Assembly (NCBI GenBank): GCA_950295325.1
Contig: OX485805.1
Location: forward strand, 26,401,501-26,465,500
Source of the DNA: Polytrichum commune
Taxonomy: Eukaryota; Streptophyta; Polytrichopsida; Polytrichales; Polytrichaceae
Reading direction: 5' to 3'
Length of the DNA: 64,000 bases
Shown: positions 8,941 through 41,599 of the stretch, in pieces
Numbering within the stretch: position 1 is the stretch's first letter
Layout of the letters: each line of letters begins with the position of its first letter
Notes under the pieces: generated by a model
The model's database searches: none
Told to the model about the DNA's origin: nothing
Seen by the model: the letters and a program-made list of their open reading frames with translations, nothing else
Position numbers and translations under genes: made by a program

Positions 8941-11900
8941 ATGGCACGGTGTCCACTTTCCAGCGTACTCTCCCACAGACGAATTGCACAGAGCGTTCAG
9001 ATATACCGAGATGCGATAGGACACCGGAATTCGTCCCGAGGTGTGTGCATGGGGTCTTCAAGACAGATAACTGGATTTGGCAGTGACCAAATAGAGGGAA
9101 GCTTTGGGGTTAATCCTGACTTTGGGATTGACGTTTTCGAGCTGATTAAGAATGGTCCAGAGAAAGGCTCTGCAACACCGCCAAAAGGAAGACTGAATGA
9201 TAGAGCTGTCCCAGCGTCTGCTTTACGTGGGAGTGCTTCGGAGGCCGTTGTTCGGGATGATGCAGTTTCTATTGCAGCTGAACCGTCCAGGGTTTTGCAG
9301 GGAGGTGAAGGGGCAAGGGTAATGAGGGAGTCACTGCACGGCACTGCGAATCCTATTTCCGGTATATCCCTCAAACAGAAAGCTGCATAAGATGTTTTAT
9401 AAAAGAAGGCGTTGTGATGCTCAAGGATTTGTAACCTATCCTGGAAAGATTATAGATATCCTTTTCACTTAATGGAACTTTTCGTTGGGAGTTGGTCCCC
9501 TATGATTTTCCATTGGTTGTTTTCCATATTATATCAATGAATACCTTTCCACTTGTGGTGCATGCTTGGAGGTAGTGTTTGAAATTGAATGAAGAGCAAC
9601 CTGTTTCAGTTCATTGAGGACCGAAATCATTTTAGCACCTCTTGGCATGCCAAAATGAGATTGACTCTTAAGGAACTTATGTAAAATGTTCTTATTTCAA
9701 CCTCCACACATCCTCCCAGCAAGCACCAAAACTTACTGAACATGGAATAGTATGCAAACCGACCAACTCCTGACCAAAAGTCCTGCTAAGTTAAAGGATA
9801 ACTATATTTCATCTAGGATTCACAGAACGTGTGACGATTGGAGTATCTTTGATCAATGGTGCATGTAAACGATACTGTCATGTGATGGAAAGGCTGGGCC
9901 TGAATGAACACTCTTGAAACGTGTGATCAGGTCAATACGCCCCCCAACTCCTCACATTAGTCTTGCTTATTTTGATGACTAGTAACATAGCATTAGGATT
10001 CACCATCATGGGTGAGACAAGCTTGTACAATATTCTTTGCATCCAGCACCTTGTTCAAGGTGCCCAAGTTTGCTTGAACCATCATGTCAATTCTCGGTGG
10101 ATAGCATTTTCTTTGGACATTGTGGACAAACTAGAACTAATGAAGACCAAAATGTGTGCATGGTTTGATGCAGTATTTATTAAGAAAATAATGTCAATGA
10201 TCGACCAGGATGGCTGGAACCCAAAGACGGTGGAAGCTCTCAAGGATCTTCAAATCCCATTCACTTCATTCCTCGTTGAAGACTCATTAAGGCGGTTGAA
10301 AGAACCCAAGTCAGCCTACAAGTTTTTCCTGTGGGCTGGGACCCAGCCAAGGTACAAACACTCAGCATACGCATATAATTTGATCGTTCAGAGGCTGGTG
10401 GGTTCAGAGGACTTTGTGAGGTGCAGACAAGAGATAGTTCTGGACATGGAAAAGCGAGGTGTGAAGATGTCTGGGGCCACATTACGGGTCCTTCTTTTAA
10501 GTTACCGAAACTTAGGTCAGCCCCTGGAAGCACTTCAGTCCTTCCGGTCTGCACAGACATTGAAATGTCAACCTGACTCCAATTTGTACAACATTCTTAT
10601 CGAGGTTCTACTGAAAGGAGGCTATTGTCACAGAGCCTTTTGGAGCTACCGGCAGATGATAAAGGCGAACTGCCCACCGAGTGCATATACTTACAGTCTT
10701 TTGATACATGGCTTTCGCCAGGTGAAGAGGGTGGGGATTGCAAGTTTGTTTCTGGAGGAGATGTCCCGAAAAGGATTTACACCAAATGTGGTCATTTACA
10801 ACTCCATGATTGATACACTTGGGAAGATGGGAAAGCTGGAGTCTGCGAAGAAGCTCTTTGAGAATATGAAGGCACAGGATGCATTGTTGCCGAATGTAGT
10901 GACGTACAACAGCCTCTTGAATGCTCTTAGTAAAACCGGAGATTGGCAGGAATCGAGGCGATTGTTTGAGGAGATGAAAGAGTCGAAGTGCATTATTCCA
11001 GACGTTGTGTCTTACAGTTGCCTCATCAATGGGCTTGGGAAGGCAGGGGAATGGGAAGCTGCACTTGAGGTTTTGTCTGAAATGCAGGCAAAAGGGTGTG
11101 ATCCAAATGTCGTAACATTCAATACAGTGATTGACTATCTTGGAAAAGCTGGACAGTTTGAGAAAGCATGCCAACTTCTGGAGGAGATGAAATCTCGAGG
11201 ATGTGAGCCTGATGTACGCACCTACAACTGCTTGATCAGCACTTTGGGGAAGGCTGGGCAGAGTGATAGGGCGTTGTCACTATTTAAAGAAATGCAAGAG
11301 AAAGGTTGCACTCCAGACACATTTTCATACAACTCCCTCATTTATGGACTCGGTAAGAGTGGGCAAACACAAGGAGCCTGCAAATTGTTGGAAGAGATGG
11401 AGCGGTCTGGTTGTTCGCCGGATGTGATGACCTACAGCTCATTGATCACAGGGTTAGGCCGAGCTGGGGAGGTAGACAGAGCGTATAAATTGTTCTTCGA
11501 AATGAAGCGCCGGGGCCGAAACCCCGACTCGGTTACATACACTGCCTTGATTGATGCGCTTGGCAAAGTCGGTCGTGTCGATGACGCACTCGAGCTTCTT
11601 GATGAAATGAAACAACAGGGCGTCAAACCAGGAGTGGCAACATACAATGTGCTCATTTCAGGGTTCGGGAAGGCGGGGGACTTGATTGAAGCGGTCAGCC
11701 TTCTCAAGGAGATGAAGGCAAGGGGATGTGTGCCGGACGTGGTTACATACAGTTGTTTGATTAACGGGCTCCTCAAAGCTGGCCAAATCGACGAGGCGAG
11801 GAAAGTGATCAAGAAAATGAATAGGGAGGGTTGTGTTCCGGATGTTGTCACATACAACACCATGATCAATGGCCTTGGGAAAGCAGGGCGATTGGATGAT

Positions 11901-12734
11901 GCTGGTCGTCTCTTTGATGAAATGAAGTTAAAAGGATGTACTCCCGACTTGGTGACATACAATACCTTAATTACGAGTCTCGGAAAGGCAGCCCGAGTTG
12001 AGAGTGCTTGTATCCTTTTTGAGGAGATGGAACTAAATGGTATCATCCCCGACACATTTACTTATTGCTCCATTATCAGCATCCTTGGCAAAGCAGGTCG
12101 CGTCGATGATGCAACCATTGTTTTTGCTGAAATGAAGTTAAAAGGATGCAAACCTGATGTGAGTACGTATAATGCATTTCTCAGTGCATTAGGCAGGTGT
12201 GGCCGTTACGTTGAGGCTCGCAATGTGTTCCGGGAAATGGGACTGAACGGACTTGTCCCGGATGTTTTAACCTATGATGCTCTCCTGTCGGGTCTTTCCG
12301 GGACACAGGAAATCAATGAAGCGTGTGCTCTGTTGAGAGAAATGATTGAGCAGTGTTGCGACTTCGACCGTATTAAGTTTGAGGACTTTCTGCAAATGCT
12401 CTGCAGTTCGAGAAACTTTGAGAAAGCTCGCGAGCTTATGGATCTTGCAAGCTCCAAGGGGAGAACACCAAGTGCGGGTGCGTACCATGTGCTTATCGAT
12501 GCGCTCGCTCGTGAAGGCAGTGTGACGGAAGCATTTAACACTTTTGAGGATTTGAAAGAACGGGGTGGGAAACCGGATGCTGCAAACTATGCAAGCTTGA
12601 TCGATGCACTTGGGAAGGTTGGTCGTGTGGATGCTGCCTTTGAATTGTACGAGGAGATGACCACACGAGGTTTCAAGCTCAATCCCCGCACATACAGCCG
12701 TTTGCTCCGGAAGCTCCAAGATTTTGGTGGATAG
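8941..12734 (+). CDS. P-class pentatricopeptide repeat protein, probably organellar
   Basis: P-class PPR proteins bind specific organelle RNAs and stabilise, splice or help translate them. Codons 10,174-12,734 encode about 22 tandem 35-residue repeats of the form PDVVTYNTLINGLGKAGR...A..LFDEM...G. There is no C-terminal E, DYW or SMR domain. The protein ends RLLRKLQDFGG. I propose a first exon at 8941-9361: it is open for 140 codons, Arg/Ser-rich with few acids at its start like a transit peptide, and its GTATAT donor leaves phase 1. That matches the acceptor gatgcag before 10,174, giving ISVFIKKIMSMIDQ and a protein of about 993 residues. The intron holds a MITE. Alternatively the main exon alone is used, starting at an in-frame ATG at 9963 or 10,140. 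The PPR call is near certain; the first exon is moderate. Confidence 0.93.
9452..9815. repeat. Foldback MITE, copy 5
   Basis: Same family as the four copies in NBS1 introns. It lies in the proposed PPR intron. Ends read gatatccttttcactt and gttaaaggataacta, and the internal ggtgcatgcttggaggtag and cattgagg segments are kept. Confidence 0.75.
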
Positions 12735-28800: not shown

Positions 28801-28853
28801 TAATAAGGGATGTTGATGAGCACAAGTTGGAATCAAGGTATGTAGACCTAAAG

Positions 28854-29370
28854 CCCTAACATTACCAAACCCAAAGGAGGTAAATGCGGTCCACATTTCG
28901 AGGCCTGTCAGAGGCTGCCCTGTACACCACGCCCTCAGCAGCCGGGACCTGCCCCTGCCCGAAACCCACCCCCTGCCAGCCCGGGCCATGCTGTCACGCT
29001 GATGGCGCCAGGCTGTCACCTTTAGGTGCCCACCCACCCCCCGAGGCCACGTCCTCGCCAATGTCTCATCTCATGCATCCAGTCGGCATGTCCATTCTCT
29101 TGTTACAGTGACATCCCATCTGCCTCCATCATGGCATCCCATGGGGACCATGGGCGGCATCCGCCCATCGAGGCGAACCCATCTACCTCGATGGCCGGGT
29201 TTTGAATTATCTATTTAAAGCACCTCCATCCAGCGATGGCTTCTCTTTTTCCTTGTAACCTGCACGCTCCGGATCTCTGCCCCAGTGGAGTGCAGGAGTG
29301 ATGCGGCACTGATGCAGCGAAGATTGCAGCACTGATACTGTGAAGGGATTACGGGCATGATTAGCATGTC
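28854..29370 (+). repeat. Left terminal inverted repeat of the MULE
   Basis: About 517 bp match the reverse complement of 40,819-41,358. The region is unusually GC-rich in its outer 300 bp. It lacks one block of about 30 bp that the right arm has, near 41,170-41,205. Confidence 0.9.
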
Positions 29371-29815
29371 GGATTATTGCCGCACTACAATCTCTTGCAG
29401 GAATTGATGGGAATCAAAGTTTGATTTGCTAAAGTGTGGCTTCGGTTTTCATCTTCCTTTGCAACAATCCATTGAACCTTCCCTCTTCACTTATTGTAAC
29501 CTAATCATCAGCTGCACTACAATCTCCTCCACTTCCTGCTGGGTTTAGAGCAATGATCCACTAAAGTTTGATTTCATGTTTCATATTTCTGGCCACAAGT
29601 CCATTCAACCATCTCTCCTCATTTACTATAACCTAATCATTAGTTGCACCACAATCCCAACCACTTCCTGGTGGGTTTAAAGCAATGATCTGCTAAGGTG
29701 TGATTTCATGTTTCATATTTCTTTGCAGTAGTCCATTCAACCTTCCCTCATCATTGAATGTAACCTAATCATTAGATGCACTACAGTCTCCTCCATTTCC
29801 TGTTGGGTTTACAGC
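29364..29815. repeat. Left subterminal 132-bp tandem repeats, 3-4 copies
   Basis: The landmark gtaacctaatcat recurs at 29,496, 29,628 and 29,760, exactly 132 bp apart. A more diverged unit precedes it (gcactacaatctc at 29,382 and 29,514). The same unit occurs in reverse orientation at the other end of the MULE. Confidence 0.85.
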
Positions 29816-31406
29816 CACCAGGAAAGAGCACCGGATAGACAGTGCGTTCTTTCCACGCACAACGCTCTCACTAACTGCGTTTTTCATACAAATTTGCAGA
29901 TCTGGATTGAGGCATCGCTTTTGTTTCATCTCATGTATTCGTTTATTGCACGTCTCTTCCATAGAGCTATATAGTTATAAAAACGGATTTGACGCCCCTT
30001 TGTCGCTTCTGTGTCAATGTTTTCATCACAGATATAGGGCTTCAATGGGTGACTATGTTACTGGTGCCGCTGTTCAGCCATGTGGTGCATTGCATACCAA
30101 CGTCTAGCTTCTTCTAGATGAACATCTTGCCTCCCAACGGCCACCTTCTATGTCGCGTGCCGTAGAGCCTTCCTACAAGTCCACGTACCAGGAGGTATAC
30201 AAGGCAGACTTTGAGCGGCTCCGCGGTTTACTTCAGACACCCGAACCAGACACTTTCATGTACAAGGATCTCACGTGGGCAATCCACATCCGCGCGAAAG
30301 GGTTTAGGGACGGTCCCAGGACTCATGCTCCAGTTTCCGTAGCGTACATACCATGGGTAAGAGTACATGATTTCGTAAAAGGTGAGGAAGCTCGCATTGA
30401 TGGTCCCTGCAAGTTTGTTTGCCAAGGCTCTCCGTCGAACTAATAGGGAAACTTACGTTCCCCCGATGGAACAACTACTCCACCGTCATGAAGTGTGTTT
30501 GTAACATGTAATTTGAATTCCATTGTGCATGTTCTCATGTTACTGATTTAAATCTTATATGTTCCCATGTGTATGTGACTTGCACTCCCAACACATATTG
30601 TTGATTCCATCGCCGACTACCAGGTATCATTGTCAATATGGCCCAAATGACAATGCCTCGCATATACCAGTGGTTACGAAGGACATGTACCAGAAGAAAC
30701 GAAAGCTCGACGTGAAGGGCAAATATGTTCCAAACGGAAAATGTCACACAGGACCACGCACATCAACGAGGATGCGTGGATCAGGGCAACGAAGGGGTTG
30801 CCAGTGTGGATTTGTCGTGAAACAATTCTACCTGGAGCCCTCAGTTGCAGAAATAACATATTATCAGATGAAGCATGTGAACCTGAATGGGATATTCTGC
30901 CATGGGTCCACAAAGATTGGCCATAAGAGTAGATTCTCCAGCCATCTCTCCGTGCATGTCCGGGAATTCATCATGTGTCATTTGCGGCTGGATTTGTCTA
31001 TCCCCCAAATAATGGGAAAACACAAAAAACGCTTCATGGAAGCGTGCGAGCGAGGGGAGGAGCTCACACGAGACCTCTTCATTTCTGAGCAAGACATCCG
31101 CAATGTCATTGGCTGCCTTGCAATAGAAACATACAAACGCGACAACAACGACGCAAAATTTGTACGCATGTAGGTGCAAGAACATTCTTCTCTCGTGTTC
31201 TACTACATAGAGTCAGGTGTACATGTTCGGGGGACTATTACACGTGATAATATTCCATTCACAATTGGCATCCAGACATCTTGGCAAGAAAAGATGATGC
31301 TAAAGCACGGGCACAAAAAAACCGTTTCCATTGACGCCACATTTGCAACTAACGATAACAAGGTTTGTTGTTACCATACATTCACTGTGAGCATGTTACA
31401 CACCAC

Positions 31407-32402
31407 TGTCGCAACCCTTGCTAGCCCCCCCTTGACTATCTTGCCAATTTTCAATTCTAGCAAAGGTTACGAGTCGCTAACCCTTCGCATACCGCCATGC
31501 TAATGGTTAGCTCCTCTAACCCCGGACCATTAGTTCATAGGAGGGGAACCAACCCTCCTACTTTGATTTCGGGACTCACCCCTTTAATCGGTAACCAACC
31601 CCTTTTATCGGTAACCAATCCTTAGATGTGGACTTCCATCCATGGAAGTCCAATCTTATGTTGATCATCGCGTTGCCGGAGCAACACTACAACAACCCGA
31701 ACCATACTAGGCAACTATGGCCTCACAATGGGCCAAAGCCCATGGAGGCCGTGCCGTTCGGCCTCGGGTGGGTGAGGCCACACCACCTCACCCATATAAG
31801 CCTCTAGGACTCTACACGGGGCCCCTACCCCACCATCAAGAAACCTCTTGTCTCTCTACCAAGAGTTGGGGCCAAGTGTACACTTTCCCTTAGCCGCTGG
31901 GCCTAGAAGCCCCTAGCAGCTTCAGACCATCATAACTTCCTTGTATGATGTCTGATCATAACAACCAACCACTCCATCTTCATCTACGCTTCACGTAGAT
32001 GCCGATGGACTCCTCACTTGCCCCATTCGGGCAAGTATTGAGGAAGTTATGCCTGTTTGAACCTTTGCAGTCCCGGGAATCACTCCCAGGCACTGCTGTA
32101 CAAGGGCGCTGTCCCGGGACAGCGCCCCACTCAAATGGCCATAACTCCTAGCTCACACCTCCGATTGAGGTGATCTTGAGCATTCTAGAATCACCACGCC
32201 ATGAGCTACCCATAGCTCATGGCCTTACCCTCATGCCTCCTAGTCTCCGTGGGTGGGAGGCGTTCCCAACGCCCGGGGCCCTCACCCACACTAGGATCAC
32301 TTGGGCCCTCTCACCAACGGCGCCACAAGTCCCGGGTGTCACTCCGGGGTCCCCCTTGTGCCCATGGTGTTTCGGGCACTCCTCATGGAGAGGTGCGCGA
32401 CA
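31407..32402. mobile_element. Solo LTR of a retrotransposon inside the transposase intron
   Basis: This 996-bp insertion begins TGTCGC and ends GCGACA, a perfect 6-bp inverted terminal repeat of the TG...CA type. It is flanked by the 5-bp direct repeat accac at 31,402-31,406 and 32,403-32,407. Without it the intron would be about 136 bp. There are no gag, pol or second LTR, so it is a product of LTR-LTR recombination. The segments cataactcctagctcac and cctccgattgaggtgat resemble Gypsy LTRs I know from plants; that class is inference. The GC-rich interior includes a 24-bp perfect palindrome. Confidence 0.93.
32104..32127. repeat. 24-bp perfect palindrome in the solo LTR
   Basis: The sequence is self-complementary around the central cccggg, flanked by gggcgctgt and acagcgccc. 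It may be a regulatory or RNA-structure element of the LTR. Confidence 0.85.
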
Positions 32403-34137
32403 ACCACGTTCACGCTAAGTGGTTTGCTGTAACACTATTGGTTTTTTTCCCCTCAAGTATATCCCAAATCGTAACATGTTCTTTTCTTTCCCCTTGCAGT
32501 TTCCATTGTACATCTTCATGGTGTTTGATGACTGGCTGAATGGAGTGCCCGTGGCGTACATTGTTACATCTAGTTCTAAGCAGCATGATCTTGAGCCATG
32601 GATGAAGGCACTCGCAAAAAAGTTGGCATCCCTGCAACCTGACTGGGCGCCGAATTCATTCATTACAGATTGTGCGCAGGCTGAGATTGGAGGGTTGCAA
32701 TCCGTGTGGCCTGGAGTTAAAGTGTTCTTGTGCCTCTAGCATGTTCGTCGTGCATGGTTGAAGCAAGCGGTAGCGAAAATTAAAGACCATGCTATACGGG
32801 CTGTTGTGCTCAAAGGACTGGGTCGAATTATGTACGACACAAAGTGTCCCCGAGGAGATGGAATGGGGCCTTGGGCCATTCGGCAATTGAATGCTCTTAG
32901 AGAAAGTTTCCCCATTGTGAGCAATTTTTGGGCTTACTTTGACAAACAATGGGCAGACAATACTCATATGTGGGTTGTTGGCCATCGTAACCTGCCATAT
33001 GCAGGGCAGGACACAAATGCTGCAATTGAGAGCTACCACTCAAACCTTAAAGCCACCTTGCGTGCATCAAAAGGCAGAGCGCATGGACGTCGCTTGGATT
33101 GGGTCATATACGAGTTGACAGGAGAAATTCTCTCCCATTATTGGTACCAGATAATGAGGAAACAACACAGGTTCGTCCCAAACTTGAAACAAGAGCAATT
33201 TGTTATCAACGCTGTGCTCAAAGCTAGGGAAATCCCTGACAGTTGTGTCACCCTCCCCATTGCAAACGACGGTCCAGCATTGGTAACGTCCATGAATAAC
33301 GCAACGAAGTTGTATTCTGTGTACAGCCCGGACTGTGAATGGGGTTGTTGTGATTGCATATGGGCACTTAAGGGCAACATATGCAAACATCAGATAAAGG
33401 TTCTCATGATACTCTATCCCGAACTTGTTGAAGGAACTATTACACGTTATTGTGGGTCCCTTGCAGACACATATGAGGGTGGTCGTACGAACATGTTGGA
33501 TCCTGTCGTACATTTCCCAGAGGATTGTGATAATACTGGGCCATCTTATACTGCCGCGACGGGTCTGCATGGTGCTACTGCCGCTCGCATCACCGCCAGT
33601 GTTACGGACATGGAAACCACTGTTCGTAACCTTGCAACCGAACTCATGGTGGCTGCCAGAGGCGATACTTTCTTGCTAGAACACCTGCTAGCTGACTTCC
33701 ATATTGTCCGGGAGAAACAACAAACCCTGTTGGCTCAAATGAAACATGGTTTGGTGGAGCCATCGCAAGTGGAATTACATTTCAACTCGAACGACGACGG
33801 TAGTAACATGTCACTGAAGCGGAGGAAGGACTTCCTGGAGCGTCAAAGATAGACATATAATGTTGTTGAACATATATTTTAAATAGACATGCACATGTTA
33901 CTGTGGAAGACGCATGTTACAGACCTTGGCACATGTGTCAGCCATTCCCACATGCGGATGGAAGTTCCAACATTGCCCATATAAAGGCCGTGACGCTTTC
34001 ATCTTCTACACTTCTACACTTCCACCACCCTCTCTTCTTTCACTCTCCCATTTTAGGGACCATAGAAACGTGCAATTCAAGCCACTAGCAGATGGCCTGC
34101 CGTATGTCATTTTGCCTACTACGTCATTCCAAACACC

Positions 34138-34491
34138 ATGCCTCCCTTTCACGTAGCACGCATTAGTGCAGCTGTTTGGAAATGGTTATGCAGATGCCCT
34201 GATGTCATTGGACCAGTTCATGACACGTCTAGCGATGAGGAGTTCTACACGCCGCCAACAACTCCTCTGCGCCTTGCCGACGAGCAGTCCGATGTTCCCA
34301 ACTTCATGCCCCACAAACTTCCTGTGCAGGGGCCACTATCACCAGCGCAAAGTGCCCGGCTGAGGCGAAGACATGCACAGGCTGTCCGGCAGCTCACAAC
34401 CCCACATCTTGCCGTTGCGCCTTCCCCACACGGCCCGTTGTTGGCATACCAACGACCAATTAAGGTGTATAGGCCAAGTTGGGCTCTTTAG
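34138..34491 (+). CDS. Small open frame in the MULE, 117 codons, unknown
   Basis: Begins MPPFHVARISAAVWKWL and continues with a Thr/Pro-rich acidic stretch (SSDEEFYTPPTTPLRL) and an Arg/Ala-rich segment (SARLRRRHAQAV). No family is recognised. It lies about 285 bp after the transposase stop in the same direction, so it could be a separate small gene, a downstream exon or chance. It is richer in GC than the flanks. Confidence 0.3.
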   Translation: MPPFHVARISAAVWKWLCRCPDVIGPVHDTSSDEEFYTPPTTPLRLADEQSDVPNFMPHKLPVQGPLSPAQSARLRRRHAQAVRQLTTPHLAVAPSPHGPLLAYQRPIKVYRPSWAL

Positions 34492-34560
34492 TTTGATTTT
34501 CAAGGACTATCTCATGTTACATTGTGAACAATGTTTTCAAATGAATGATACATTTTCCCA

Positions 34561-34850
34561 GTTTGTGGGTATTGATTTAAGTGTTCCATCTGTAACGAGT
34601 GTTTGTGGGTATTGCTGTAAGTAATATAATCTGTAACGAATGTTTGTGGGTATTGATTTAAGCGCCCCATCTGTAACGATTGTTTGTGGGTATTGAATTA
34701 AGTAATATAATCTATAACGATTGTTTGTGGGTATTGATTTAATTGTTCCATCTGTAACGATTGTTTGTAGGTATTGATTTAATTGTTCCATATGTAATGA
34801 GTGTTTGTGGGTATTGATTTAAGTGTTCCATCTGTAACGAATGTTTGTCT
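34561..34850. repeat. Eight tandem repeats of 40-41 bp
   Basis: The landmark gtttgtgggt starts at 34,561, 34,601, 34,642, 34,682, 34,723, 34,763, 34,803 and 34,843 (slightly diverged). Units read gtttgtgggtattgattta followed by gtgttccatctgtaacga or a variant. The array lies between the 3' ends of the two convergent MULE genes. Confidence 0.93.
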
Positions 34851-35242
34851 TCAACCCCCTGCATTGCACCCAATCACCAACAGTCATCCACACAGCTTGA
34901 CCTTAAATTCCCTTTGCATTAATAGCTACGCCAGAAGCATATGTACTTATTCTCAAACTGGGAAAACAGAATTGGGTCATGTTACAAATGTTGCAATTGT
35001 TACACAGTACAAAGTTCATCACTCATAAAGTACAAAGTATCAATCATAACAACAAACCCACCGATTCTAACACCTACTATTTCCCGTCCTTCCATTGAAA
35101 GCCCATCCAATCACTATTTACCTGCAAGTCCATGAATGCACTATCAAATTTTTAAACTTGTAACATGTACCTTACTTCTAACCTAGGATACAATGCATGT
35201 AACGGGTCTTCAATCTGCCCTGGACGTCTATTAGGAGAGGAT

Positions 35243-38200
35243 CTATTGAGTAGCATCCATGACAGTCTCATGTGCAATCTGGGATACTTCAACAAATGTA
35301 TCGACGGCCACAAGCACGGGCGGATCGTCAACCTGAGATGACGCGGCCGCTTCAAGTTCCTGTCCCAAATTTCGTGTTGCAGCAAGTGAGGGCGTGGGAG
35401 TAAGTGACACTGAATCTTGCCAGTCCAAATCCAATTGACTGGGCAATTCCTCCAAAGACTTCTCTTGAGTCATAGGTATCTCCCATGCGGGTCCAACATG
35501 CACGTCTGCATGTGTGGAGGCAGCGTCCTCTGCATTATATTGGGAGTTTGGTTCCACCCGGGGCTGCACAACCTCTGCCGATTCTGGTATGCTAACACCG
35601 CATACATTGTCGGCCTTGCTGGCATTCGTAACATGCACCTCACATTCTTGAATATCCACTTCGTGTTGGGTGGCTTGTGGAGGATGTACTTCTGATTGTT
35701 GGCAACGTTCTCTACTGATATTTTCTGCAACAGCTCTGAGCTCGTACAAGTACTCAGTGGGTTCCGGCGGTGGGACCATAACATCTGCCAGCCAGTACAC
35801 ACATTGGCATTGTTACGTTTGTAACTTCTGAAATATATGTTGAAAACAGTACATCATGTCACAAATGAAAGTCCACAAATTTACCTGGGTTAGCAAGGAC
35901 ATATCCAATGTCCATGTCCTCTCGGTATTGTAACCATCTGTCGTAACATGCAAGGGAGCGTGAAGACGCACTGGGAGGATCCCGAATGACCCAGGCACTA
36001 ATCCACATCTGTGCGTCATGGAAGGCCATGTCTTGCACTGCTCTAAACTGAGTTGAATTGCACCATTTCCGCAACTCTGCCCACCAGTGAGGGCTGAGAT
36101 TTTGTAACTCCCTCCAAACAGCCTCCACATCTGCAACCCACTGGTGTAGCGAATCCACCGGCCTGGCTCCTGTAAACAACACGGAACCCTCTTCTTTCAA
36201 GTACGACGTTGCTAGCTGCCAAGCATGCGGGCCATCTCCATCGACTTCTTTTGCGACCCCCAACCATTTCATGATGTTGGCTCCAGTGAGGCCATTCTGC
36301 GGGTGTAATAGCACAGGGGGCAATAGGCTATAATACTTAAGAAAACATCGAAAGAGAAGAACAAACCAAGGCACCGGGTACACCCTCTTTACCTGAGATT
36401 GTTGCAATAAGACTTCACGCACATTCCAACCCTCAACAGCTGTATGAGACAAGGGGTAAGGGGGTATGAAGTTGGCGCAAAGAGGATTGGCCAGAAAAGA
36501 GGCATAGAAAGGGTGCCACCCCCAAGTAGCTCGCAGCAAACGCGGGTAATGCTCGTCATCCCATTGTTTCAAGACCTTGGCAATGGCTTCGCTGACCTTT
36601 TTTTGGCGGTCGTCCTCCCATTGCTTTCGTTCTTTGACCACCTTCCGCATGACGAAGATGTGTTGCACGTAAGTGATTAGAGATGCCGTCTCCACGTCCA
36701 TAGCGGTGGCATCCTCAATGTTGTTGACGACCCCCACCACAGCCTACGTGATTAGAGGTGTTATTTCTGGTTTGGCCTGCATCAACAAGTACAGAACATG
36801 TTACGAGCAAGTTAACATTCCTAAACACATGTTACGACTTCATTACCATCTGTCAACACATATTACAACCGCGAATCATAGAGACAACAAGAACGGCAAC
36901 ATGAGTGTGGTCACAAATGAAGAGGAAATGTTACACTGTTACAAGAGGAAATGCATAATATCATAAACTACAAAGAGGGCATAAAAACATATAGGTGTTA
37001 CCTGGTGTGAAGGAGAATAAAATCTGCCGTATGCGGCAAACAGTCTATCCATAAATGTTGGGTGGTTTTTCCATTCATGAACCTGAGCCTCAAAGTCTTC
37101 ATATTTTTCGTTCTCCAAATTAAAGGCTAGAAGACCACATGCCATCAAATGGAATAAGCCTGGGGGTTGTATTGGCGGCCTCAAAGGTGGTTTGGAGATG
37201 TCCATCTTGACAGTCCCGCGCGCTGCAGTTGCGGCTTTCAGGTAGAAAGCATGGCGTTCCTTTCGAAGCCCCAATGCTAAGTCATGCTCCTCTCTTGGAG
37301 TCTCCATATGAGTGGCAGGTGTAACAGGTGGCAGAGGCGCGTCTGGCGGTACATGCACAGCAGGAGAGGGCGGCACCTGCTTAGTAGGAGGGGGAGGCAG
37401 CAAAATGGCAACCCTCTCTGGTGAGGGGCTACGAGTTTGGAGAGGTGTGACTTGAATGGGGTGGGGAGGAGGTAGTCTCTGGCCAGCCGCGGAAGGATGC
37501 GCAGGTCGCGGAGGGTTCGGTGGCCGCTCATCTCCACCAGCCGCATGTCGCGAATGCAGGGGACTCTGTTTTCGGTGTTGAGTTCTGAACTGTCGGCTGG
37601 AATGGAAGACGCGGTGGCCACCCTCCATTTCTGCATGGCTCCGTTTCTTCGGCCGGACAGGGGGCGCCTTGTCCTCATCACTTTCATCATCGGGAAGCTC
37701 AACAAAAGTTGGTGGCTGAGGTGGGGCAGAATCATGCCTGGGAGGGAGTGGCGGTTTGCATTTGGGTTGCGGCCGGAAATCTCTGGGTGGGGGAGGGTAG
37801 GTTGTCAATCTCTCCAGCGTCGCCTCCATGAACGAACGCACCTGAACCCTGGCTCCGGGGGGAGGGATAGTGACATCCCTGAGCTCAGGGTTTAAATCCA
37901 GCCATACCTCATCGTCGTGGAGGTTGTCCCACAATTCCCCATCACCACGCTGAAGAGCAAGTTTGAAATCCTTACCTTGTTTTGCCGTCTTCAGATTGGG
38001 ATACACAGGCAGTTCCCACTTTGCTCCACACGAGTTGACTGGTCCACACGGGCAGCCTCCAACTCGGTGGTCTGTGAGCTGTAGTTTGCTAGGAAATGAT
38101 CCTCTGCAATAGACGCACATCCAATCGTCCCTGGCCTTGTCCCCATTCCGAGTGCGGTTGCGAGTACACTCCAACTTCAACTCAATGTAGACATGCCGCC

Positions 38201-38456
38201 TGACGTACTGCTCCACCCACCCTGCAGAATCCCGGTTGACGTAGTACACAACCTCGTCCCCTTCCGCCATAGTAGCTTCGGCCTCGCAGTCCCTATCCTG
38301 CAAACATCCCTCAGAGTCAATGGCCATGAAGAGGGCACTTAGAAGCCCGAGGAAGAAGGAGGACGGATGAGTGCTTGCGGCACGGGGAATATGGCGGCAG
38401 GTTCCCGGATGCGGGTCGCCGGAGCCCTCCGGAGGAAGGAGGGCAGCGACACCCAT
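35243..38456 (-). CDS. Second gene of the MULE, unknown function, about 919 codons
   Basis: Exons in reading order: 38456-37002, 36743-36393, 36296-35885, 35784-35243. All are GT-AG with matching phases and no internal stop. Keeping the 96-bp intron 36,392-36,297 would also keep the frame. Visible parts: an N-terminal acidic region; a C2H2-like cluster with a Cys-rich extension (WMCVYCRGSFPSKLQL, DHRVGGCPCG) near residues 110-150; a long Pro/Arg/Ser-rich low-complexity middle (about 210-400) with basic PKKRSHAE, a possible nuclear signal; and a Trp-rich ordered second half (WGWHPFYASFL, WLGVAKEVDGDGPHAW, WWAELRKW). The tail is acidic and Gln-rich. It points toward the transposase and ends about 1.4 kb from its stop. 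I recognise no family. An accessory transposition protein (as mudrB is proposed to be) or a captured host gene are both possible. Confidence 0.75.
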
Positions 38457-38909
38457 TCTAACACACTGTAAACCCTAAAAACTAAGAGAAGATGAGTGCA
38501 ATGCCTCTAAGAAGCTGAAGTGACCAGAACACATGGAATGCAGAAAAGATAAAGCACAAAACTTTCAAGTACAATCTGGGCTCCCACGAATGAGGAGGAC
38601 ACCGGAAAAAATAGCCAACACAAACTAACGGAAACTGCGACATGTTACAAGAATGTAGGCTACTTGGATGACACACACCTGTTGTAACCACCGTATGCGC
38701 ACGGTGTGCTTGTCCGACGATGAAGGTAGTCGACAAAAATAGCACGCCTTGCTGGAGTTCCGCAAATTAAGCCTTACACCTGCTGACAATGAGGACATGA
38801 ATTAGAATTGTGGACAACATATTGGCCGGCACACTTGACCACTTCATTCGTACAAACCAATCACTCCATGGACGAGACCAGAGTGCGGCAAAGATTTGGG
38901 TTGTGCAGC

Positions 38910-39852
38910 AAATGATTAGGTCAGGCTATATGAACAGTGATGTTTCATCACATTATTGCAACCTAAACCCAAAATGATTTCACATTTGAACGCATCACTG
39001 TTCTAAACCCATCACAAACTGGACGGGACTGTAGTGCAGCTAATGATTAGGTTACAATAAATGAGGAGGGAAGGGTGAATGGCCTATTGCAAAGATATAT
39101 GGAAAATGACAACATAGTTTAGGAAATCACTGCTCTAAAACCAGCAGGAAGTGGAGGAGATTGTAGTGCAGGTAATGATTAAGTTACAGTCAGTGGCGAG
39201 GGAAGGTTGAATGGATTGCAGCAAAGAAATATGAAAAGGGAAGCCACACTTTAGCACAACATTTTTGTACACCCAGTAGGAAGTGGAGGACACTGTAGTG
39301 CAGCTAATGAGTAGGTTACAATAAATGAGGAGGGAACGTTGAATGGACTATTGCAAAGATATGTGAAACATAAAGACATAGTTTAGCAGATCATTGCTGT
39401 GAACACAGGACGAAGTGGACAGGACTGTAGTGCAACTAATGATTAGGTTGAATGGACTATTGCAAAGAAAAATGAAAATTGAGGCCATAATTTAGCAGAT
39501 CATTGCTTTAAACCCAGCAGGAAGTAGAGGAGACTGGAGTGCAACTAATGATTAGGTTTCAGTAAATGAGTAGGGAAGGTTTTTAGGACTGTTGCAAAGA
39601 AAGAAGAAACATGAAATCACACTTTAGCATATCATTGCTCTAAACCCAGTAGGAAGTGAAGGAGACTATAGTGCAGCTAATGATTAGGTTACATTCAATG
39701 AGGAGCCAAGGTTGAATAGGTTGTTGCAAAGAAATATGAAAAATGAAGCCTAACTATAGCACACCATGTCCCTAAACCTAGCAGGAAGTGGAGGAGACTA
39801 TAGTGCAGCTAATGATTAGGTTACAATAAATGGGGAGGCAAGGTTGAGTGCA
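38910..39852. repeat. Right subterminal 132-bp tandem repeats, about eight copies
   Basis: The landmark gcagctaatgattaggtt (or variant) occurs at about 38,907, 39,036, 39,168, 39,300, 39,432, 39,541, 39,673 and 39,805. Most spacings are exactly 132 bp; one unit is shortened to 109 bp. The units are the reverse complement of those at 29,364-29,815. Confidence 0.9.
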
Positions 39853-41016
39853 TTGGTTGCCCACAAATATGAATCATGAAGCCACACTTTAGCACCTCAT
39901 TCATCTAAACCCATCACTTCCTACAAGATGTTGTGTTGCGGCAATAATACTAGGTGTTTGGCAAATGAGTATGTTATAATCACAGAGAAACGATGGTTCA
40001 ATAGACATTTCCACCCAAATATGAAAAACAAAGCACTCTTGACCAAGTCATTGTTGCACTCCAATCAGTTCGTGGGACATACTGTACCACAAGAATAATC
40101 CAAGGTGTGCAGCAAAATATAAGGTTACAGTCGATCGGAAACAATGCTTGATTGGACATTTGCAAAGAAACATGAAAAGTTCTCTCACTTACCTTGTTTG
40201 TAACCACCATGTTCGAAAGGAAGCGCTGAAGATGTTCATCATGCCTGTAATCCCTTCGCTGCATCAGTGCTGCAATCTTCGCTGCATCAGTGCCGCATCA
40301 CTGCTGCACTCCACTGCGCCAGAGATCCGGAGCGTGCAGGTTACAAGGAAAAAGAGAAGCCATCGCTGGATGGAGGTGCTTTAAATAGCTAATTCAAAAC
40401 GCGGCCATCGAGGGAGATGGGTTCGAGATGGGCACTGGTTGCCCACAAATATGAATAATGAAGCCACACTTTAGCACCTCATTCATCTAAACCCATCACT
40501 TCCTACAAGATATTGTGTTGCGGCAATAATCCTAGGTGTTTGGCAAATGAGTATGTTACAATCACAGAGAAACGATGGTTGAATAGACATTTCCACCCAA
40601 ATATGAAAAACAAAGCACTCTTGACCAACTCATTGTTGCACTCCAATCAGTTCGTGGGACATACTGTACCACAAGAATAATCCAAGGTGTGCAGCACAAT
40701 ATAAGGTTATAGTCCATCAGAAACAATGCTTGATTGGACATTTGCAAAAAAACATGAAAAGTTCTCTCACTTACCTTGTTTGTAACCACCCATGTTCGAA
40801 AGGAAGCACTGAAGATGTTAATCATGCCCGTAATCCCTTCGCAGCATCAGTGCTGCAATCTTCGCTACATCAGTGCCGCATCACTCTTGCACTCCACTGG
40901 GGCAGAGATCCGGAGCGTGCAGGTTACAAGGAAAAAGAGAAGCCATTGCTGGATGGAGGTGCTTTAAATAGATAATTCAAAACCCGGCCATCGAGGGAGA
41001 TGGGTTCGCCTCGATG
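39853..41016. repeat. 582-bp tandem duplication at the right MULE end
   Basis: 39,853-40,434 is repeated at 40,435-41,016 with an offset of 582 bp. The copies share ggttgcccacaaatatgaat at 39,855 and 40,437, and cgagggagatgggttcg at 40,409 and 40,991. The second copy continues into the terminal inverted repeat, so the outer TIR segment is present twice on this side only. Confidence 0.92.
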
Positions 41017-41358
41017 GGCGGATGCCGCCCATGGTCCCCATGGGATGCCATGATGGAGGCAGATGGGATGTCACTGTAACAAGAGAATGGACATGCCGGC
41101 TGGATGCATGAGATGAGACATTGGCGAGGACGTGGCCTCGGGGGGTGGGTGGGCGCCTAAAGGTGACAGCGTGGCGGTCCAGCGTGGACACTGCGACAGC
41201 CTGGCGCCATCAGCGTGGCAGCATGGCCCGGGCCGGCAGGGGGTGGGTTTCGGGCAGGGGCGGGTCCCGGTTGCTGAGGGCGTGGTGTACAGGGCAGCCT
41301 CTGACAGGCCTCGAAATGTGGACCGCATTTACCTCCTTTGGGTTTGGTAATGTTAGGG
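40819..41358 (-). repeat. Right terminal inverted repeat of the MULE
   Basis: Reverse complement of 28,854-29,370 with a few substitutions and an extra block of about 30 bp near 41,170-41,205. It ends at the exact border with the 9-bp target duplication. Confidence 0.9.
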
Positions 41359-41599
41359 GACCTAAAGTGGTCAGTGACCTTAAATAGTTTCAAGTACATA
41401 CCCAAGATTCTACATTGAACTTTCTCAAACAAAACTTCAGAAGCCCTTACCAGGAACTTTTCCAGAAATATTGATTCAACAGGTTGTATATCTCCAATTT
41501 ATTTGCATAAGAAATTGTAGCACCTAGAACTAGATAGGTATCTTGCTCAGATCCCACATTGACAAACCTATTCTGATTCAAACCACAACAGTATAATTG

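Follow-up and report, generated by a model that had tools for sequence, protein, structure and literature searches.

Here we describe a Mutator-like element (MULE) of the moss Polytrichum commune. It occupies positions 28854-41358 (12,505 bp) of a 64,000-nucleotide stretch of contig OX485805.1 (positions 26,401,501 to 26,465,500 of the forward strand), which we call the window. The copy begins with CCCTAACATTACC at 28854, ends with GGTAATGTTAGGG at 41358, and is flanked on both sides by the identical 9-bp target site duplication (TSD) GACCTAAAG (28845-28853 on the left and 41359-41367 on the right). Inverted-repeat comparison places the left terminal inverted repeat (TIR) at 28854..29367 on the plus strand and the right TIR at 40815..41358 on the minus strand, as two blocks: an outer pair of arms (28854-29017/41195-41358) at 98% identity and an inner pair (29006-29367/40815-41176) at 97%. 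More inverted repeats are located internal to these arms. Tandem repeats of 132 bp with TGTAACC sites lie inside the left end (29464..29815), and a set in the opposite orientation, with GGTTACA sites, lies inside the right end (38994..39913). When the genome (407.8 Mb in 64 contigs, labelled C1, C2 and so on) was searched with the first 50 bp, three other full copies of 10.6-12.2 kb were found (C1:2077055-2087689, C2:24661444-24673668 and C2:44901263-44912105). Since these copies share the 50-bp terminus at both ends, with one mismatch at one end, and each has a perfect 9-bp TSD of its own, the boundaries of the window copy are not a matter of chance. TSDs of MULE type measure 8-11 bp; 9 bp is the length in the window copy, in the three further copies and in two more distant copies of the same subfamily (subfamily A). 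The window copy is thus a MULE with its own termini and a 9-bp TSD.

The transposase gene (30150..33852, plus strand) comprises exons at approximately 30150-30442, approximately 30622-31362 and 32500-33852, whose limits were judged by eye, using splice signals together with conservation. Exon sequence 32500-32736 matches the MULE transposase family PF10551 with an E value of 4.6e-6 and 27.4 bits, slightly below the 27.6-bit cut-off. A SWIM match (PF04434, E 0.2) is also below its cut-off, and the C.C..C.H spacing is visible by eye. The main transposase exon has a ratio of nonsynonymous to synonymous substitution rates (dN/dS) of 0.08-0.25 in pairs with dS of at least 0.2. The predicted second intron, of phase 0 (31363..32499, plus strand), holds a nested solo long terminal repeat (LTR) of 996 bp (31407-32402, TG...CA, TSD ACCAC) that is not present in the three other full copies. 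Sequence related to this LTR was also seen by eye near the expected left end of the copy at C3:19741242 (L028) and inside L032.

Facing the transposase gene is a second gene (35243..38456, minus strand; exons 38456-37002, 36743-35885 and 35784-35243) with a predicted product of 951 amino acids. Its structure is drawn from three long open frames, conserved exons and dN/dS, and its splice sites were placed by eye. Between the two convergent genes lie a 40-bp tandem repeat present 7.2 times, with CTGTAACG sites (34561..34848), and a small third gene (34138..34491, plus strand) whose 117-amino-acid product ends in KVYRPSWAL and for which a Pfam search found no known family. All 13 subfamily A copies match the third gene, two of them with a stop. 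Its dN/dS is 0.21-0.45 in seven pairs with dS of at least 0.30, 0.24 for L012 and L013, and 0.90-1.18 in four pairs of young copies.

The initial annotation of this locus had proposed an intact MULE with long TIRs, a perfect 9-bp TSD and two convergent genes. The boundaries agree with that proposal, and the opposed genes do too, given the PF10551 match and the three open minus-strand frames. Two genes are indeed present; the small third gene was overlooked. The copy is not intact, because an in-frame TAG at 32737-32739 interrupts the transposase and the solo LTR sits in its intron.

Do the two genes belong together? Genome-wide, we found at least 112 matches to the transposase exon, at 38-100% identity, and at least 118 to the core exon of the second gene. 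The transposase search scored 111 of 493 candidates, the core-exon search 133 of 152, and a search with the second gene of a distant element 123 of 205, and a missing match in any of them is no proof of absence; the counts that follow refer to the matches listed. Second-gene matches used for pairing were 113 of 118 for the window query and 87 of 123 and 4 of 9 for the distant queries. For 93 of 112 transposase pieces, a homologue of the second gene is found downstream in opposing orientation, no more than 10 kb away. Any second-gene match at all lies within 10 kb of 94 pieces, and it is downstream and convergent for 93 of these. Among the transposase pieces of at least 60% identity (58 pieces at 55 loci, three of which appear as two pieces), 46 have a convergent second gene within 10 kb downstream, a further 5 have a similarly arranged one at 12-19 kb, at least one of them from another element, and 7 have none listed. 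Pieces at 38-47% identity behave similarly: 47 of 54 have a convergent second gene of their own in the same place, 1 has it upstream, and 6 have none listed. Simple arithmetic gives a chance expectation of about one such neighbour. The second gene of the window copy finds almost nothing near these distant pieces when used as query. Their second genes were found by reading L017, L018 and L020, and two of these were then used as queries. Among the exceptions, L019 has a homologous second gene 27 kb further on in the expected direction, L032 is broken by insertions, with nothing recognisable as a second gene across the 10 kb examined, and L033 keeps its Ulp1 part with the rest of the second gene disrupted.

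Elements delimited by their termini give the same picture. The 24-bp terminus, with at most one mismatch, occurs at 124 ends, 100 of which were taken into pairing and gave 32 facing pairs within 70 kb. Both genes, convergent, are enclosed by 22 of these pairs (17 of them 10-17 kb long), the transposase only by 1, the second gene only by 5, and neither by 4. Hence, of the 23 TIR-bounded elements in which a transposase match is present, 22 hold both genes in the same order, as the initial annotation had proposed checking. It had named copies with the same TIRs and transposase and no second gene as the sign of a one-off capture; one of the 23 is such a copy, with stops in its transposase, and the second gene is thus no one-off. 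L007 and a copy on C5 have the same transposase and second-gene scores and different 9-bp TSDs, and therefore both genes moved together recently. A third copy of this type, on C3, has other sequence at the expected left end. The five TIR-bounded second genes without a listed transposase are at C3:56289240-56300470 (L034/L035), C1:42837412, C3:31686895, C1:65746585 and C1:31949148. Three of them share a terminus variant, and these three may stem from one deletion. L034/L035, read through, has 10 identical flanking bases, a remnant of the third gene and no transposase match.

What kind of protein does the second gene encode? Alignment reveals a C2HC zinc finger (38052..38117, minus strand) whose C, C, H and C are invariant in 15 of 15 aligned second proteins from three subfamilies. 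Across subfamilies the core exon has 20-26% identity to the window copy. As judged from these alignments, the second proteins of the three subfamilies are one protein family. In pairs with dS of at least 0.36, dN/dS ranges from 0.17 to 0.46 in exon 1, from 0.17 to 0.31 in exon 2 and from 0.25 to 0.68 in exon 3; for the core exon it is 0.17-0.31 in seven pairs with dS 0.38-1.5. Comparisons of the window copy with its three closest copies give 0.38-0.88, from few changes and with decay mixed in. These ratios indicate that the second gene is under purifying selection and that this accessory gene changes faster than the transposase. Looking for a host origin of the second gene, we found that no Pfam family reaches its cut-off on the second-gene exons; the weak matches on the core exon are to HSA (E 0.012, 3 of 19 members) and BEN (E 0.059, 2 of 19). 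A likeness of the core to TAL effectors (25 chains at E 3e-5 to 7e-4 when the profile was compared with solved structures) was rejected as a chance effect of short repeats, no single stretch passing alone. The predicted structure of the window copy's core exon, folded alone, has a mean pLDDT of 41.4 and is uninformative.

The histories of the two genes run in parallel. Transposase and second-gene distances correlate with r 0.975 across 20 elements (a value reached in 0 of 5000 permutations) and, within subfamily A, with r 0.65 across 11 elements (reached in 1 of 5000); the trees do not include L003 and L005. This congruence indicates joint inheritance of the two genes throughout three deep subfamilies. 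L012 and L013 conflict with the pattern: their transposases are 0.019 apart (dS 0.017) and their second genes 0.42 apart (dS from 1.8 to saturation), which argues that the second-gene half is exchangeable between lineages.

In subfamily B, a Ulp1-type domain follows the second gene on the same strand. All five subfamily B members match Peptidase_C48 (PF02902), the best with 27.0 bits against a cut-off of 20.7; in single-element scans L020 scored 17 bits and a 141-amino-acid piece of L018 gave no match. His, Asp, Gln and Cys, which we take to be the catalytic residues of the Ulp1-type family, are all kept in six of seven aligned sequences, L020 having Tyr for Cys; two of the seven contain stops. 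The domain also matches the Ulp1-like protease structure PDB 6dg4 (E 0.00067). Judging from its position, it may be the C-terminus of the second protein or a separate gene. The second-gene exons of the window copy have no match to Peptidase_C48. L033, a subfamily B element, also contains a long minisatellite of CATGTTCCACAA units (about 7138-8400 of L033), and an open reading frame adjoining it resembles, by eye, a BED-finger hAT protein. Elsewhere in the window, a 935-codon open frame at 9927-12734 resembles a pentatricopeptide repeat protein by eye.

The non-coding DNA of these elements is rich in short repeated words that differ among subfamilies. In the introns and spacers of the window copy, GTTACA/TGTTAC is far above first-order Markov shuffles, and the consensus around GTTAC, from 271 non-coding sites in ten elements, is CATGTTACA. 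In each of the 13 subfamily A copies, GTTACA ranks between 1 and 5 among 1282-1928 hexamers. For subfamilies B and C, the corresponding words fall at ranks 1 to 7 in the nine elements ranked, a set that leaves out L019 and L033: GTTCTG is 1st in L020 and L021; GTCCTT is 1st in L022 and L025, 2nd in L018 and L024 and 5th in L023; TGTCAC is 1st in L026 and 7th in L017. Outside its own group each word stays close to background, apart from a weak excess of GTTCTG in L016. L033 has an array of CATGTTCCAC, and single elements also have high counts of further words, such as the tandem units of L013. The non-coding density of GTTACA is 3.9/kb in L016, 2.3/kb in L007 and 4.3-7.5/kb in the other 11 of the 13 subfamily A copies, compared with 0.5-1.4/kb in subfamily A coding DNA and 0.70/kb in the window flanks, where the B and C words have densities of 0.37-0.51/kb. 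The ratio of non-coding to coding density for GTTACA is about 3-13-fold in 12 of 13 copies and 2.1-fold in L007. In L034/L035, GTTACA has a density of 2.4/kb and falls outside the twelve most enriched hexamers, and G+C-rich repeats are high.

The subfamily A word outlasts the sequence around it. Of 1417 bp of central non-coding DNA in the window copy, 88-159 bp align with seven of the nine copies of subfamily A that are more distant (604 with L009 and 715 with L014), and GTTACA is kept in the distant copies despite this loss of alignable sequence. Its sites in the window copy are found on both strands (22 and 18). They are located in introns, spacers and subterminal tandem arrays and almost never in the last 240 bp: among five full subfamily A elements the terminal counts are 0/68 (window copy), 0/67, 2/74, 0/51 and 0/51. 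This near absence argues against simple end-binding sites for the transposase. A family-specific short motif in non-coding DNA is therefore present, most clearly in subfamily A and with a weaker contrast between coding and non-coding DNA in B and C.

A known system shows several of these features. In Arabidopsis VANDAL elements, tandem repeats of the non-coding DNA contain family-specific motifs, and the accessory protein VANC is more diverged than the transposase VANA (PMC5735166; this and the other papers cited are represented here by excerpts). Sequence-specific anti-silencing by a transposon protein has been described for them, and some VANC genes carry a Ulp1 domain (PMC13317346). From the layout and the motifs observed in the moss, we infer binding and anti-silencing of a similar kind, and we tentatively favour, at a little short of an even chance, a VANC-like self-recognition system in a moss MULE family. 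By analogy, the second protein would bind the word of its own subfamily, and the bound protein would mark the whole element as self. This marking would lift or block silencing and so permit expression of the transposase, as VANC does for VANDAL elements. In subfamily B, the Ulp1-type domain could strip SUMO or a similar modifier from host chromatin proteins, a putative activity. Candidate lineage motifs are CATGTTACA, TGTTCTGCA, ATGTCCTTCA and CAGTGTCAC, with CATGTTCCAC in L033, and GTCCTTCA is the candidate word, and putative second-protein site, of a subfamily B element.

A more specific version, which we consider possible and somewhat doubtful, is that mosses have an independently evolved counterpart of VANC: a zinc-finger family unrelated to VANC, each member of which would recognise the motif of its own lineage and lift its silencing, with a Ulp1-type domain gained in one branch, as in the Arabidopsis KIU elements. 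Because no VANC domain was detected, we do not file the second protein as VANC.

Several observations weigh against self-recognition by the second protein. Among the matches listed, 19 of the 112 transposase pieces have no second gene at the expected position up to 10 kb away. The second-gene exons have no match to the VANC domains DUF1985 and DUF287 at E up to 1; a genome search for DUF1985 was empty, and its controls gave nothing either. The history of the transposase parallels that of the second gene, so the transposase could be the motif reader. The words themselves are less tidy outside subfamily A: the ratio of non-coding to coding density of an element's own word is just 1.2-3-fold in nine B and C elements, and the word is raised in DNA masked as coding (3.8 and 3.1/kb in B1, 1.3-1.8 in B3 and 1.8-2.6 in C), with L017 showing 3.0 in non-coding versus 2.6 in coding DNA. 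L016 has a weak excess of the B word GTTCTG (5 vs 1.5, rank 55), and L019, of C type, has no clear word, 3166 of its 10000 bases being not covered. The words were picked on some of the same elements and the members are related, so replication is partly independent. Finally, the second gene of L034/L035 is decayed, with two stops in the match of each of its three exons and a 415-codon open stretch in exon 1. This decay, together with the weaker coding contrast in B and C, slightly weakens self-recognition and strengthens the first of its rivals.

That rival holds that the second protein is a transposition helper, which would bind the motif so that the element is folded or paired when it excises and inserts, without a role in silencing. 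In maize, mudrB helps insertion, and TnpA binds repeats in CACTA elements. We judge this explanation unlikely overall, yet a serious contender, since the moss second gene is convergent as in MuDR and the motif also occurs within subterminal arrays. However, introns and central spacers of the window copy are densely populated with sites, and the terminal 240 bp have none. The 5 of 32 TIR pairs that enclose a second gene and no listed transposase also speak against a helper, with little weight given the decay of L034/L035.

Alternatively, the transposase might read the motif and the second protein might have another job. A transposase must bind its own DNA, and the motif groups agree equally well with its history and with that of the second gene. 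Binding would be expected near the ends, however, where the motif is lacking, and we consider this improbable. We give even less credence to the idea that the motif is a host transcription factor site or a by-product of tandem duplication, to which the second gene is unrelated. Some sites do lie in tandem arrays, and the 40 sites of the window copy reduce to 25 distinct contexts; but most sites are in distinct contexts, and within this one genome each subfamily has a different word, which stays near background in the other subfamilies and in the window flanks, with the weak exception of L016. A one-off capture of a host gene fragment as the source of the second gene, a Pack-MULE-like passenger, is barely credible: host-gene capture is frequent in MULEs (PMC13317346), but the convergent pairing in three subfamilies, purifying selection, congruence with the transposase and the 22 of 23 TIR-bounded elements contradict it.

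How does the moss family compare with described MULEs? It resembles VANDAL21/Hiun and its VANC in being a MULE with accessory genes, in its faster-diverging accessory protein, in its family-specific non-coding motifs and in the Ulp1 domain of some members, the marks reported for VANDAL/VANC in PMC5735166, PMC10398659 and PMC13317346. It differs in several respects. VANC has DUF1985 and DUF287, which were not detected in the moss second protein, where a C2HC finger is found instead. VANDAL TIRs are absent or short and degenerate (PMC6446971), whereas the moss element has arms of about 0.3-0.5 kb. The motifs are distinct (CATGTTACA in the moss, YAGTATTAY or AGTTGTCC in VANDAL elements). Anti-silencing has been demonstrated for VANC, whereas the moss system is known here from its sequence.

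The layout is closer to that of maize MuDR, which has long TIRs, a 9-bp TSD and convergent mudrA and mudrB genes. The moss element shares the long TIRs, the TSD length and the convergent transposase and second gene. Compared by description, however, its second protein, at a predicted 951 amino acids and with a zinc finger, is unlike the product of mudrB (about 207 amino acids), and the moss element also has a repeated internal motif and a third small gene. KIU (Kaonashi) MULEs share a Ulp1-type C48 domain with an accessory gene, in the moss in subfamily B only, but they are non-TIR MULEs (PMC13317346), and the second-gene exons of the window copy have no Peptidase_C48 match. Angiosperm MULEs with PMD genes likewise have an accessory gene antisense to the transposase (PMC6446971). 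In the moss second-gene exons, though, PMD (PF10536) has no match at E up to 1; a genome search for it was empty, and its controls gave nothing either.

The initial annotation had suggested an independent case of an accessory gene in a MULE. In favour of this, no Pfam family passes on the second-gene exons, mudrB being compared by description. Accessory genes are, however, less rare in MULEs than it implied: PMC6446971 names mudrB, mutB, vanB/vanC and the antisense PMD genes. Its statement that mudrB is confined to close relatives of maize does not appear in the excerpts cited. Among the literature matches listed, there was no description of a moss MULE with a second gene.

Why do MULEs so often carry a second gene? 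The moss family bears on this question. If the same design has indeed been reached with an unrelated moss protein, motif-based self-recognition would count as a general strategy among large MULEs. The pairs of subfamily and motif would then offer natural material for finding the determinants of specificity, and the second proteins would be candidate sequence-specific chromatin factors.

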